A stretch of 38,597 nucleotides of DNA, taken from positions 1 to 38,597 of the IMG/VR virus record IMGVR_UViG_3300037587_000320. One strand, 5' to 3'. The position numbers and the translations under genes are program-made. The DNA is from a virus. Positions 3,826-14,297 of the stretch are shown here, piece by piece (the stretch's first letter is position 1; every line of letters starts with the position of its first letter). The notes beneath the pieces were generated by a model that was not told where the DNA came from, did no database searches, and worked only from the letters and a program-made list of their open reading frames with translations.

Positions 3826-4494
3826 TTATAAGTTGGCATTTTTTAGGGATTCGTCGTACCACTCCCAATTATCAACTCCGCCTTTTTCAAGCGCTGCCAT
3901 TTTCTTTTGAGTAGCAAGTAATGACTCATGTTCTGATTTAGTTATAAACTTATCCTTACCACGCCAATCACTAATGTAAACTAGCATGGAATTAAATTTA
4001 TCTTGAATCTTATCTATACCGGCTTTTGCTGCTTTATTTATATTAAAGTTGGCTTCTCTTGCTAGCTCCAAAGTTTGTATTTCAGACTTTAATAAATCAG
4101 CCTTGGTATTTAAGCCACTTACAGCTTCGCGCCATTCAGCGTGTAAAATTTTAGTTTCTTCAAACTCTACCTTCTGTCTTTCGATTTCTTTTTGTAAGCT
4201 AATGATTGAATTAGCTTCGATTGGTGAGTCATGCAATAGTCTTTTCTCTACCATGCAAATTATTGAATGTTCCTCGTCTTGAATATCCGCAAGAATAGCT
4301 TGTGCCTGATCATATTCATCTTGCGCAGCTTCTCCACTAGACATAGGAGATCGACACTCTGACGGAGTGCAATAATACTCAGCCTCGATATTGGAAGCAA
4401 AGTGAGTGTTTAACTGTATTTCGCAGAACGCATCATTTACATCTCTAATAATTACGCACGGGTTGTTTTGATAAAACTTTATTTGGTCACTCAT
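3826..4494 (-). CDS. Coiled-coil hypothetical protein, first gene of the leftward operon
   Basis: The 222-residue protein has an N-terminal region with several cysteines (1-50) and a long heptad-rich helical region (about 55-180) with segments such as IISLQKEIERQKVEFEE and ADLLKSEIQTLELARE. Its C terminus contains tryptophans (WRGKDKF, DNWEWYDESL). AAAGGA lies 8 bases before the ATG. It is the first gene after the divergent promoter region, so it should be made early. It is not recognised. It could be a structural coiled coil or a regulator of the downstream recombination genes. Confidence 0.75.
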   Translation of the reverse strand: MSDQIKFYQNNPCVIIRDVNDAFCEIQLNTHFASNIEAEYYCTPSECRSPMSSGEAAQDEYDQAQAILADIQDEEHSIICMVEKRLLHDSPIEANSIISLQKEIERQKVEFEETKILHAEWREAVSGLNTKADLLKSEIQTLELAREANFNINKAAKAGIDKIQDKFNSMLVYISDWRGKDKFITKSEHESLLATQKKMAALEKGGVDNWEWYDESLKNANL

Positions 4495-7103: not shown

Positions 7104-7829
7104 GTGCATTACTATAAATTCAACATAGCAGACTGGAGTCTACACACGGCCCATCTGTCACTAATTGAAGAGGCAATCTATTTTAGACTCGTCAATTATT
7201 ATTATGACACTGAGAAACCAATACCACAAGAAACCCAGATGGTTATTCGTAGGTTACGACTGGAAACCGAAGTGGGAACGGTATCGGCTATTTTGACTGA
7301 GTTTTTCACCTTAAAAGATGATCAATGGTTTCACTCGCGTTGCGAAAAAGAAATTAAAGCTTTTAAGAAAAAAGCCAAGGTTAATAAATCAAATGGGGCC
7401 AAAGGTGGTAGACCTCCCGCCAGTAAAGACTCAGAGAGTAACCCAGAAATAACCCAAACGGTTAGCGAAAATAACCCAGACATAACCTTAACCAATAACC
7501 ATAAACCAATAACCATAAACCATAAACCACCAACCAATAAACAAGTTATTAAAGATCCTTCCCGCTTCGCTGAATTTTGGGATCTGTATGCTAAGAAAAC
7601 TGATTCTAAAAAATGCGAGGCTAAGTTCAATAAATTAACCCGGGTCGAAATAGATCTGATATTCGAAAAGCTACCGCTCTACATCCAATCAACTCCAGAC
7701 AAGCAATATCGTAAAAACCCTATGACATGGTTAACTGGAAAATGCTGGAATGATGAGGTTCAATTAAATTTAAGCGAAAAACCAACCCACGAATTCAGCA
7801 CTCAAAACTACCGATCGGGGAATTTCTAA
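7104..7829 (+). CDS. Replication initiation protein, DUF1376 (YdaU-like)
   Basis: The 241-residue protein starts with GTG, with GAGGT 10 bases upstream. Residues 1 to about 90 are a DUF1376 domain: YKFNIADWSLHTAHLSLIEE, then RLVNYYYDTEKPIP and VSAILTEFFTL. A basic glycine segment NGAKGGRPPA follows. A low-complexity region rich in Asn, His, Pro and Thr (115-150) precedes a C-terminal domain with FAEFWDLYAKK and KNPMTWLTGKCWND. In lambdoid-type phages a protein of this type binds the origin and hands the helicase loader to it, like lambda O. The low-complexity part is encoded by an ATAACC/ATAAACC repeat tract that may itself be the origin. The next gene, the loader, overlaps by one base. Confidence 0.8.
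   Translation: MHYYKFNIADWSLHTAHLSLIEEAIYFRLVNYYYDTEKPIPQETQMVIRRLRLETEVGTVSAILTEFFTLKDDQWFHSRCEKEIKAFKKKAKVNKSNGAKGGRPPASKDSESNPEITQTVSENNPDITLTNNHKPITINHKPPTNKQVIKDPSRFAEFWDLYAKKTDSKKCEAKFNKLTRVEIDLIFEKLPLYIQSTPDKQYRKNPMTWLTGKCWNDEVQLNLSEKPTHEFSTQNYRSGNF
7441..7545. repeat. Iteron-like ATAACC/ATAAACC tract, candidate replication origin
   Basis: About ten copies of ATAACC or ATAAACC lie in roughly 100 bases inside the replication gene, followed by an AT-rich stretch. The lambda origin also lies within gene O and consists of repeats beside an AT-rich segment. The position and repeats fit an origin, but simple codon repetition could also produce the pattern. Confidence 0.5.
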
Positions 7830-8581
7830 TGTTCATTAAAAAAATGCCAGATACCCCAGAAATTATTAACTGCCATAAACACGGATCTTTTAATGTTAAA
7901 TACATGAAGCTTTTCGGCGGCAAAATAATGGAAACCCGTGAATGTTCAGATTGCATCATTGAGCGCGACGAGCAAAGCGCTATCGACGAAAGGCGAAAAA
8001 GAGATGAGCAATCTCAAACCCTAGAAACAAAAAAAAGACTCAAGGCTGGAATCTCCCAGCGAAACATTAACAAAACATTTGATGATTACATTTGCAATAC
8101 ACGGGAGGAGCAACACGTAAAAACGATAGCCGAAAACTTTGTTAAAAACTTCCCGGGTGATCAAAATATTTTAATGCTTGGCTCTGTGGGGACTGGTAAG
8201 ACGCTTCTAAGCTCTGTAATCATCGAAGCCTTGCTACCAGACTACCAATGCCTGATCATAAAAGTAATGGACATCGTACGAGCAATTAAGGGTACTTGGG
8301 GTGGCAAGTCAGAGCGATCAGAGTCAGATTTGATTGATATCCTAATAAACAAAGATCTTTTAGTCATTGATGAAGTTGGGACTCAATTCGGATCAGACAC
8401 TGAGAAGCTGTTTATTTTCGACATTATCGATGGGCGCTACCAGGCAATGAAGCCAACGATATTAATTAGCAACCTTGATGTTGATGGAGTGAAAAAGGTA
8501 ATTGGTGATCGTTGCGTTGACAGGCTTAGAGAGGGCGGCGGTAAAATGATCGCTTTCGATTGGGAATCAAAGAGAAAGTAA
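7829..8581 (+). CDS. dnaC: DnaC-type helicase loader (AAA+ ATPase)
   Basis: The 250-residue protein has an N-terminal zinc-type segment (CHKHG at 15-19 and CSDC at 39-42) and a charged linker (45-72). The AAA+ domain has Walker A GSVGTGKT (118-125), Walker B LLVIDEVG (177-184), sensor-1 ILISNLD (211-217) and the GDRCVDRL arginine region (227-233). This matches DnaC/DnaI loaders, which open the host DnaB ring and place it at the origin. It overlaps the DUF1376 gene by one base, the standard initiator and loader pair. The phage encodes no visible replicative helicase or polymerase, so it must use the host's. Confidence 0.9.
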   Translation: MFIKKMPDTPEIINCHKHGSFNVKYMKLFGGKIMETRECSDCIIERDEQSAIDERRKRDEQSQTLETKKRLKAGISQRNINKTFDDYICNTREEQHVKTIAENFVKNFPGDQNILMLGSVGTGKTLLSSVIIEALLPDYQCLIIKVMDIVRAIKGTWGGKSERSESDLIDILINKDLLVIDEVGTQFGSDTEKLFIFDIIDGRYQAMKPTILISNLDVDGVKKVIGDRCVDRLREGGGKMIAFDWESKRK

Positions 8582-10786: not shown

Positions 10787-10831
10787 ACCACGCTAACGTG
10801 ATACGATCAATTAAACAACGAGGGAATGATG

Positions 10832-11377
10832 ATGAAAATATCAAGCAAGCAGTTACGGGCAGCAAAATTATGCCAGGCAAAGAACGACATTCGATATTAC
10901 TTGAATGGCATTCACATTTATAAAAACAAGATCGAAGCCACAGACGGACACATGGCCGTTCAAATGACAATGAGCAAAAGAATAAGGCGCGACATTATTT
11001 TAAACATTAATGGAGCGATTCCGAAAAAAGCTATCTCATCTGTTTTTGTGTTTGGGAAAGAAAACATTGTTAAAAACTATGACATATTTGGCGTCTTACT
11101 TAACGTTTTAGTCGTTGATGTTATCGATGGTAAATTTCCAGACCTTAAACGGGTTATACCAACCAAGTTTAAATCTGTAGATTGTATTGGTGTGAATACA
11201 TCATATATTGGACTGTTTGGTAAAATGTTCGAATGTCGATGGGGTGACATAGCAAAGCTTCAATTCACCAGTAAAAACGGGACAATGATGCTGACCTCTA
11301 ATAGTGTGTCAGTCAATTTTGAGTATGGCGATCCTAAATTCATTGTTATGCCGGTCAGGTTGGATAATTTAGATTAA
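10832..11377 (+). CDS. Sliding-clamp-like protein, DnaN domains II and III only
   Basis: The 181-residue protein carries the signature motifs of bacterial DNA polymerase III beta in order: NDIRYYLNGIHIYKNK (18-33), ATDGHMAVQ (36-44), DGKFPDLKRVIP (99-110) and the C-terminal FIVMPVRL (170-177). In E. coli DnaN these motifs belong to domain II and the end of domain III. Domain I is absent and domain III is shortened (about 68 residues against about 120). It could form a smaller ring, join the host clamp as a mixed ring, or bind and block the host clamp or its partners. GAGGG lies 7 bases before the third of three consecutive ATGs, which is chosen as the start. It lies in the rightward replication region. 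Confidence 0.75.
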   Translation: MKISSKQLRAAKLCQAKNDIRYYLNGIHIYKNKIEATDGHMAVQMTMSKRIRRDIILNINGAIPKKAISSVFVFGKENIVKNYDIFGVLLNVLVVDVIDGKFPDLKRVIPTKFKSVDCIGVNTSYIGLFGKMFECRWGDIAKLQFTSKNGTMMLTSNSVSVNFEYGDPKFIVMPVRLDNLD

Positions 11378-12543: not shown

Positions 12544-12894
12544 ATGTTATTAGATGATGGTTTTTTAAGTATCGTTGGTACAGTGTGGGAGGTGGGACAT
12601 AGGCCAACCGGAAAAAACTCAGTAAGAATGAAGGGTGGCTTGTGGCGCAATGAAATTGGCATGGAAGATACCATAAGCGAATTAGAGTGGTTGTCTATTA
12701 ACGAAACAAATTGGAAGGGTGATGAATTTCTCTACATTAGAAGGGATCCAATTTGGGGCGTGATGTACCACAAAGATTATAATAATAGCTTTAATTGGTA
12801 CACTCGAAAAGAATGGCAAAAAACTAGATACTATCGAGGTCTAGATCAAAAGCCACGCTGTCGATTAGTAAAAGGCGAATGGGTGAAGCAGTGA
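12544..12894 (+). CDS. Hypothetical aromatic-rich protein (116 aa)
   Basis: The protein is rich in Trp and Tyr (GTVWEVGHRPTG, GGLWRNEIG, WKGDEFLYIRRDPIWGVMYH). It is beta-rich with a basic C terminus. CGAGGTAGTT precedes the ATG. It overlaps the NinB start region. It is not recognised. Confidence 0.65.
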   Translation: MLLDDGFLSIVGTVWEVGHRPTGKNSVRMKGGLWRNEIGMEDTISELEWLSINETNWKGDEFLYIRRDPIWGVMYHKDYNNSFNWYTRKEWQKTRYYRGLDQKPRCRLVKGEWVKQ

Positions 12895-13343
12895 GCGAAA
12901 CCCGCGACTTTAAACTGCATCGAGGCTCATTGCCTGAGTTGCTTGATATGATGCGCAAGATTGTATTGAGCGGCCTATCTTATCGAATATCAATAGTTGA
13001 GTGGTCAGATAAACGCGGGTTATCAGCTAACGCACAGCAACACGTTTGGTACAAGCGCATAAGTCAGTTTTACGGTTGCGACATTCCTACCGCTGGCAAT
13101 CAATCGAAGTTAGACTTTGGGCTTCCTATATTGCTTGCTGATTCGGATATGGGGCAAAAAGTTGACTTCCTACTGAAAAAAATAGGCTTCTACAGTTTCA
13201 CCAGGGAGCAGCAAGTAAACGTGATGGACTTAATCCAAGTCACATCGCTATTTTCAACTAAACAGCATAATCTTTATCGTGACAATTTGGTGATGTATTG
13301 GCATGAGCAGGGGTTAGAATTGGAATATAAGGAATCGAAATAA
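12879..13343 (+). CDS. ninB: NinB recombination protein (Orf family)
   Basis: The protein has up to 154 residues and matches NinB/Orf. It has an N-terminal strand region, then RGLSANAQQHVWYKRISQFYG (about 46-66), a helical middle KVDFLLKKIGFYSFTREQQV, and the C-terminal tail. Lambda NinB (Orf) binds single-stranded DNA and can replace RecFOR in phage recombination. The ATG at 12879 is used here. A GTG at 12891 that forms a GTGA overlap with the preceding stop is an equally good start. It lies upstream of the ABA-sandwich and NinG genes, as in lambdoid nin regions. Confidence 0.85.
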   Translation: MGEAVSETRDFKLHRGSLPELLDMMRKIVLSGLSYRISIVEWSDKRGLSANAQQHVWYKRISQFYGCDIPTAGNQSKLDFGLPILLADSDMGQKVDFLLKKIGFYSFTREQQVNVMDLIQVTSLFSTKQHNLYRDNLVMYWHEQGLELEYKESK

Positions 13344-13699
13344 TGAACTACGAAGAAATGAGCGATCAGCAAATAAACGAGGCAGTTACTTGCATTATGT
13401 TTCAGTGCAAAGGGTGGTCAATATCAAAGAATGAGAGCTTTTTTTATCATTGTGGTGTAACAGGCGATGAAATGTATTCTCAGGAAATTATTGATTACTG
13501 TAAATGCCCTAGCGCTTGGGGTTGGCTTATTCAGGACAATAAAATCAGCTGCAATTGGTGGGTTGACGAAGAAGGTGGTAATGATGACCGATGGGGCGCA
13601 TCTACAGGTAAGAAATGGGAAAACGCAACTCACCCCACAAGTCCAGGCCGCGCAGTGGCTATTTGCTATTTGAAGATGAAAGAGGCTAACAATGGCTAA
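13343..13699 (+). CDS. Phage ABA-sandwich protein
   Basis: The 118-residue protein begins MNYEEMSDQQINEAVTCIMF. It has a DYCKCPSAWGWLIQDNKISC segment (about 51-70) and ends with PGRAVAICYLKMKEANNG. This N-to-C layout matches the phage ABA-sandwich domain, found as small accessory proteins near nin genes. The role is unknown. AAGGAATCG precedes the ATG. It overlaps NinG by 8 bases. Confidence 0.75.
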   Translation: MNYEEMSDQQINEAVTCIMFQCKGWSISKNESFFYHCGVTGDEMYSQEIIDYCKCPSAWGWLIQDNKISCNWWVDEEGGNDDRWGASTGKKWENATHPTSPGRAVAICYLKMKEANNG

Positions 13700-14297
13700 C
13701 ACAAAACGCCGTTGCACTTTTTGCAAAGATTACAAATTAGCAGTAGATGGCGTTAAGTTACCGGCCGGGTTTTTTTGCAGCTTCGATCACGCGATAAAAT
13801 ATGCCAATGACAAGAAATTAAAAGCCAGCAAGATAAAAGTTAAAGCCAAAGCTAAGGCAGAGAGAAATCAAACTAAGCAGCGCAAAAAAGAGCTTATGAC
13901 ACGCGCTCAGTGGTACAACAAGCTGCAAAGCCTAGTTAACCAATATGTCAGGCTAGTTAGGGACGTTAACGAGCCATGTTGTACTTGTGGAACGACTAAC
14001 CCTAATATCAAATATGATTCGGGGCATTTCTTCACTCGCGCATCCCGGCCGGATATTAGATTTGAGCTAACCAATTTGGCAAAGCAATGTAGCGTAAAGT
14101 GCAATCAACACGGTTCCGGAATGCGTAACGAGTACGAAAAATTCATTATTGAAAAGTACGGCCGTGATCATTTAGATTGGTTAACACTAGAAAAAGAACC
14201 GTTAAAAGTTCAGTTTCCTAACTGGCAAGATATTGAAGCGGAGATTATCAGGTATAGAAAACTATTGAGAGAAAACGGCATAACGCCATCAGTTTAA
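13692..14297 (+). CDS. ninG: NinG recombination protein (Rap family)
   Basis: The 201-residue protein matches NinG/Rap. CTFCKDYKL (8-16) and GFFCS form an N-terminal zinc site, followed by a long lysine-rich helix (42-70). The nuclease-like core has PCCTCGT (95-101), YDSGHFFTRAS (108-118) and KQCSVKCNQHGSG (131-143). Lambda Rap is a structure-specific endonuclease that cuts Holliday junctions and D-loops. With NinB and the Rad52-like annealase this gives the phage a fairly full recombination kit. AGAGGCTAACA precedes the ATG. Confidence 0.9.
   Translation: MANTKRRCTFCKDYKLAVDGVKLPAGFFCSFDHAIKYANDKKLKASKIKVKAKAKAERNQTKQRKKELMTRAQWYNKLQSLVNQYVRLVRDVNEPCCTCGTTNPNIKYDSGHFFTRASRPDIRFELTNLAKQCSVKCNQHGSGMRNEYEKFIIEKYGRDHLDWLTLEKEPLKVQFPNWQDIEAEIIRYRKLLRENGITPSV

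Follow-up and report, generated by a model that had tools for sequence, protein, structure and literature searches.

The DNA analyzed here, IMG/VR record IMGVR_UViG_3300037587_000320 from position 1 to 38,597, is a viral sequence of 38,597 nt and is referred to below as the window. Its forward strand carries an open frame at 10832-11377 for a protein of 181 residues, which we call the mini-clamp. These coordinates and this length agree with the original prediction, and all four motifs that it had named (NDIRYYLNG, ATDGH, DGKFPDLKRVIP, and VMPVRL) are present in the frame. Further in-frame ATG codons precede the gene at 10826 and 10829; the start at 10832 is favored by the GAGGG sequence in front of it and by the N-terminus MKI that is typical of the family. 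A scan for promoters and terminators found no signal exceeding that of shuffled sequences. The features of the locus are collected in Table 1.

Table 1. Features of the mini-clamp locus in the window (aa, residues of the mini-clamp; E. coli numbers refer to DnaN)
Feature	Positions	Strand	Basis
DUF1376 primosomal / replication initiation protein	7104-7829	+	
DnaC-like helicase loader	7829-8581	+	
Ribosome-binding site GAGGG, 7 nt before the ATG at 10832	10820-10824	+	Sequence
Mini-clamp gene, 181 aa, PHROG_3007 family	10832-11377	+	Sequence, profile and model matches
Domain II equivalent, aa 1-112 (E. coli about 129-251), no second helix	10832-11167	+	Alignment, AF2 model
Loop NDIRYYLNG, aa 18-26 (E. 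coli 149-157); pocket R152, L155 and DNA-side position 149	10883-10909	+	
ATDGH, aa 36-40 (E. coli 171-175), pocket subsite I	10937-10951	+	
Site of lost domain II second helix, aa 61-68	11012-11035	+	DSSP on AF2 model, alignment
DGKFPDLKRVIP, aa 99-110 (E. coli 238-249); pocket P242, R246, V247	11126-11161	+	
Junction where E. coli about 256-314 (domain III first half) drops out	11174-11182	+	hhalign gap, 0/59 filled
Second half of domain III, aa 116-177 (E. coli about 315-366)	11177-11362	+	
VMPVRL, aa 172-177 (E. coli 361-366), pocket subsite II	11345-11362	+	
NinB/Orf recombination mediator	12879-13343	+	
NinG/Rap junction endonuclease	13692-14297	+	

The mini-clamp gene is located among early genes, downstream of those for the DUF1376 protein and the DnaC-like loader and upstream of those for NinB/Orf and NinG/Rap, and the other arm of the phage encodes Erf and a RecBCD-inhibitor-like protein. 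The window encodes a protein of 222 aa (3826-4494, reverse strand) whose last ~40 residues match T7 gp5.9, a RecBCD inhibitor, and whose remainder belongs to no known family. The gene content is that of a lambda/P22-style phage, and from the DnaC-like loader we infer that this phage borrows host DnaB and Pol III. HMM searches of the entire 38,597-base record agree with the earlier observation that no polymerase or clamp loader is encoded. When the ORFs of the window were scanned for the clamp-binding motif (CBM), strict motifs were absent and matches were no more frequent than in shuffled sequences, so that no phage-encoded partner is evident. PADLOC defense models had no match.

The mini-clamp is a true homolog of the bacterial beta clamp, DnaN, as had been proposed, and the evidence from profiles and predicted fold is far beyond chance. 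Profile-profile comparison (hhalign) with eight full-length DnaN sequences gave a probability of 99.8 and an E value of 1e-28, and NCBIfam dnan matched at an E value of 1.4e-8, with a score (34.2 bits) that does not reach the equivalog cut-off of that model (137.65 bits). Single-sequence tools gave a weaker DnaN signal than profile and fold methods: the Pfam DnaN central domain scored 18 bits, under its gathering cut-off of 27, and phmmer against the PDB found beta clamps at an E value of about 1e-4. Given a 31-row alignment, AlphaFold2 (AF2) predicted a clamp fold for the monomer (pLDDT 94.4, pTM 0.88). The predicted model superposes on the domains of beta clamps; the best 50 PDB matches in VIA-align were all bacterial beta clamps (Z 13.1-14.8), with 158-165 residues aligned over E. 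coli-type positions 128-366 and an rmsd of 2.9 for the 165 aligned residues of the top match (Z 14.8).

Alignment and model also define what remains of the clamp. Domain I is absent, as had been noted. The description as domains II and III only was right in that domain II is present, minus its second helix, and has to be corrected for domain III, of which only the second half is found. The hhalign alignment covers DnaN 135-366 but omits about 59 residues, ~256-314. When aligned with full DnaN, the mini-clamp fills 0/59 of positions 255-313, and the same is true of 13 of 14 short relatives taken from the tblastn hits (2/59 in the remaining one). This stretch corresponds to the first beta-alpha-beta-beta-beta motif of domain III, and the second helix of domain II is absent from the AF2 model as assigned by DSSP. 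Instead of three domains with two such motifs each, the protein has only three motif equivalents, one of which is helix-less. The mini-clamp is the II/III boundary of beta, made up of the larger part of domain II and the latter half of domain III. The family also has a longer type, represented by L111 (225 aa), from hosts that include beta-proteobacteria. It shows the same domain III gap; in the AF2 model of L111 (pLDDT 83.5) the fold is as in the mini-clamp and a short second helix is kept in domain II. The combination of this helix with the domain III gap suggests that the clamp was reduced stepwise.

The ring interface of E. coli beta consists of I78 and F106 (domain I) against I272 and L273 (domain III), and of ion pairs that K74, R96, R103, and R105 form with the stretch E298-E304 (PMC11139829). 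Because domain I and DnaN 255-313 are both missing, every one of these published interface residues falls in a segment that is absent from the mini-clamp.

By contrast with the lost interface, the peptide pocket is kept. In beta it is formed by R152, L155, T172, G174, H175, R176, L177, P242, R246, V247, V360, and M362, and further by N320, Y323, V344, P363, M364, and R365 (PMC11139829). The mini-clamp is identical to E. coli at 13 of these 18 residues; V360I and M364V are conservative changes, and R176M and L177A are also found. R152, G174, P242, and M362 are invariant across relatives of the mini-clamp in both the pattern-found and the tblastn-found set, and L155 is so apart from one F, although conservation at E. 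coli 147-155 is biased in the former set, whose loci were selected by a sequence pattern (A[KVR][NKC]D[IVP]RY[YC]L), a filter of which the tblastn set is free. T172, H175, Y323, P363, and R365 are mostly retained in both sets. Identity to E. coli is 0.73 at the pocket versus 0.25 over all retained positions. Compared with other DnaN-invariant residues in the retained part, the pocket is not significantly better conserved (p about 0.2), and it may therefore persist partly for folding. In the subfamily of the mini-clamp, R176 and L177 of subsite I are usually replaced (by V or M, and by A, respectively), so that pocket specificity may have shifted, and the affinity or specificity of the mini-clamp pocket may differ from that of beta. 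In the enteric prophage alleles L011, L015, and L021, the equivalent of H175 is replaced by F, S, or R among close relatives, with the rest conserved, which suggests a changing pocket specificity. The pocket of beta has ssDNA as a further ligand (PMC11139829).

The mini-clamp had been described as a reduced clamp; this part of the description stands, but the protein is not a one-off and belongs to a large single clade of phage proteins of about 165-250 aa. It is a member of PHROG_3007 (E value 1.4e-45, residues 1-179 on positions 3-188 of the 190-position profile). Searches with tblastn detected 257 GenBank phage records at E<0.001 and 308 at E<1, and prophage copies occur in 59 of 5,426 complete E. 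coli genomes. In IMG/VR, 347 related loci were found with an alignment as the query; the mini-clamp sequence alone, used as the query, had no match. In a maximum likelihood tree built on shared columns, 43 short proteins and 12 full-length DnaN sequences lie on opposite sides of a branch with 100/100 support. The closest relative, S141_43 of Shewanella phage 1/41, is 53% identical, and proteins of similar length with the same deletion and motifs include Skatevirus CPT_Skate_041, Serratia phage Eta_0010, Sodalis phage SO-1 gp07, and Skarpretter gp04. The PHROG_3007 relatives differ from the mini-clamp in sequence only, the latter being more basic than most (+11) and carrying the R176M and L177A changes. 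Both the name "beta subunit" and the sequences can be found in public records, so this is not a new family; we found no paper on its half-domain architecture or function, in a search that covered few subscription journals.

Names on the family records diverge. Many depositors use "DNA polymerase III beta subunit", and PHROG and RefSeq use "RusA-like Holliday junction resolvase". These PHROG and RefSeq labels make up the entire case for a resolvase, an identity that we rejected and consider scarcely credible: hhalign of the family with E. coli RusA gave a probability of 0.1 over 20 columns, Pfam RusA matched 0 of 31 members (DNA_pol3_beta_2 matched 24 and dnan 30), and the PHROG_3007 profile recognized host-genome frames of 368-374 aa, evidently chromosomal DnaN, at E values of 1e-14 to 1e-21. 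The RusA label, which is wrong, is found on RefSeq records such as NC_025458, NC_013600, and NC_048112 and is spreading to many phage genomes. Another possibility is that the gene is a decaying, functionless remnant of a phage or host dnaN. The copy in Edwardsiella phage PEi21 is split (L136, 1489-2016) and that in Fels-1 is frayed (L145, 2211-2845), and in such places the gene must be dispensable. However, the deletion boundaries are uniform throughout a deep single clade, and the median dN/dS was 0.076 over 599 pairs among 46 distinct enteric prophage alleles. The prophage relatives are thus under strong purifying selection and encode a maintained protein, and, unless selection acts differently in the lineage of the mini-clamp itself, we regard decay as a highly improbable explanation.

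The distribution of the gene among carriers was informative in other respects. Among 32 records of carriers, about 30 of them distinct and some perhaps fragmentary, none was found to encode a clamp loader or a DNA polymerase of family A, B, or C. The sole carrier, among those tested, that encodes a polymerase and loader is the T4-like Morganella phage Mm5. This phage (vB_Mm5; PP397179.1, L141, 3998-4516, and L144, 1616-7030) encodes a polymerase, a loader, and a clamp of the gp45 type and has the mini-clamp besides, a case of two clamp-fold proteins of different origin in one phage. Given its own complete replicase, processivity is an unlikely role for the mini-clamp there. The gene is often outside replication modules; in Shewanella phage 1/41, Skate, and SO-1 it stands alone, on the opposite strand and inside structural genes, and the depositor of SO-1 annotated it as a "possible moron". 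Among 105 flanking proteins we found no shared operon partner. Anti-repressors, helicases, ParB-like proteins, and methyltransferases were the most frequent types, and none of them accounted for more than 5 of the 105. In enteric prophages (L132, 8189-9567; L133, 5255-6570; E. coli lambdoid prophages), the gene follows one for a BRO-N or ORF6N protein of the anti-repressor type, and the early operon in L132 and L133 ends with excisionase and integrase. DNA methyltransferase genes are beside or near the mini-clamp gene in L137, L139, L140, and L141. MutL, a mismatch repair protein, is known to bind beta. The lone or opposite-strand placement, the lack of a constant partner, the Mm5 replicase, and the broken copies fit an accessory gene for interaction with the host better than a core subunit of replication.

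Since the docking pocket is kept and all known ring-closing parts are lost, the mini-clamp probably does not encircle DNA but serves to capture host proteins or to redirect them. With middling confidence, and on the basis of sequence comparison and the predicted model, we propose that it is a ringless, clamp-fold receptor for CBMs that competes with host beta for its partners. Having kept the II/III boundary with the peptide pocket and shed both halves of the ring interface, it would bind, as a monomer or in some other non-ring form, the CBM peptides of host beta-binding proteins. Candidate partners include Pol III alpha, the delta subunit of the clamp loader, Pol II/IV/V, MutS/MutL, and Hda. 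By competing with host beta for such proteins, the mini-clamp would tilt replication and repair in the host in favor of the phage. A beta made monomeric by I272A/L273A binds delta about 50-fold more tightly than the dimer and is unable to tether Pol III for processive synthesis (PMC11139829). A protein whose ring interface is permanently lost would accordingly be expected to compete well but to contribute little to processivity. The earlier suggestions that the protein may poison the host clamp or recruit host Pol III come near to this proposal. Because the mini-clamp lacks the surfaces through which one DnaN touches another, host clamp-binding proteins, reached through the kept pocket, are a more likely target than host DnaN itself. 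Points against a CBM receptor are the R176M and L177A changes in the mini-clamp, the loss of H175 in some prophage copies, the chance that the pocket persists partly for folding, the binding of ssDNA by the pocket of beta, and the shift to positive charge described below.

Other readings have to be weighed against this proposal. The original prediction had raised a new form of ring, which is weakened by the location of the listed interface residues in the two missing stretches. In such an assembly, two half-domains III would pair into a composite domain, giving a dimer, a tetramer, or a C-shaped clamp around DNA; the pseudo-twofold symmetry of each clamp domain makes this pairing geometrically conceivable, and the half domain would expose a face that is buried in full DnaN. 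We nevertheless consider it very unlikely, because in addition to the known interface the second helix of domain II is lost, and the monomer alone is predicted with high confidence. Replacement of the host clamp, also raised earlier, is unlikely in view of the failure of monomeric beta to support processive synthesis by Pol III. A further reading, in which the family is a widespread class of loader-independent clamp substitutes that, as monomers or half-domain oligomers, take the place of host beta as the tool-belt that polymerases and repair proteins of the host use on phage DNA, appears rather doubtful to us.

A somewhat stronger, though still tentative, competitor is a monomeric, basic, loader-free processivity or recruitment factor that, by a logic analogous to that of herpesvirus UL42/UL44, would itself bind to the DNA of the phage and keep host Pol III or another CBM protein there. 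Viral clamps that work without a loader are reported to carry positive charge and not to have the shape of a ring (PMC9690074). The charge of the retained module has a median of +1 in the family versus -4 in host DnaN (one-sided Mann-Whitney p 2e-5, the short proteins being one clade and hence not independent), and the mini-clamp itself has a charge of +11 and a pI of 9.6. This shift to positive charge suggests DNA contact, which a pure decoy would not need. The DNA-side loop 148-157 is highly conserved, the tested carriers other than Mm5 have no polymerase or loader of their own, and in the source phage the gene lies within the early replication/recombination region. On the other hand, some family members are neutral or acidic, the gene frequently sits elsewhere than in replication modules, Mm5 owns a T4-type clamp, and monomeric beta binds DNA yet gives Pol III no processivity (PMC11139829). 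The decoy and tether readings are compatible and do not exclude each other.

Like bacterial DnaN (E. coli b3701; TIGR00663), the mini-clamp has domain II, the second half of domain III, the CBM pocket, and the fold; it differs in lacking domain I, the first half of domain III, the second helix of domain II, and the ring interface, and in being basic where DnaN is acidic. Beta*, a UV-inducible short form of E. coli beta, also lacks domain I, but it retains the whole of domain III and has been reported to be a trimeric clamp. Herpesvirus UL42/UL44 offer an analogy in their clamp fold, basic character, open form, and independence of a loader (PMC9690074), but they are not of DnaN-type sequence and are partnered with a dedicated viral polymerase. 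Gp168 of Staphylococcus phage Twort, which binds the DNA channel of the clamp and blocks its loading, is likewise a case of phage interference at the host clamp (PMC11139829), whereas the mini-clamp is itself a piece of the clamp bearing the pocket.

The relabeling of PHROG_3007 alone would change many automatic phage annotations. If the proposed role as a ringless CBM receptor is true, the docking site of the host clamp exists in ringless form in hundreds of phages, among them common siphophages of Salmonella, E. coli, and Klebsiella. The mini-clamp would then be a natural tool for finding the clamp partners that a phage must capture or block, and a natural CBM trap of relevance to clamp-targeting antibiotics. 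It would also make it possible to test if the clamp fold functions when no ring is closed.
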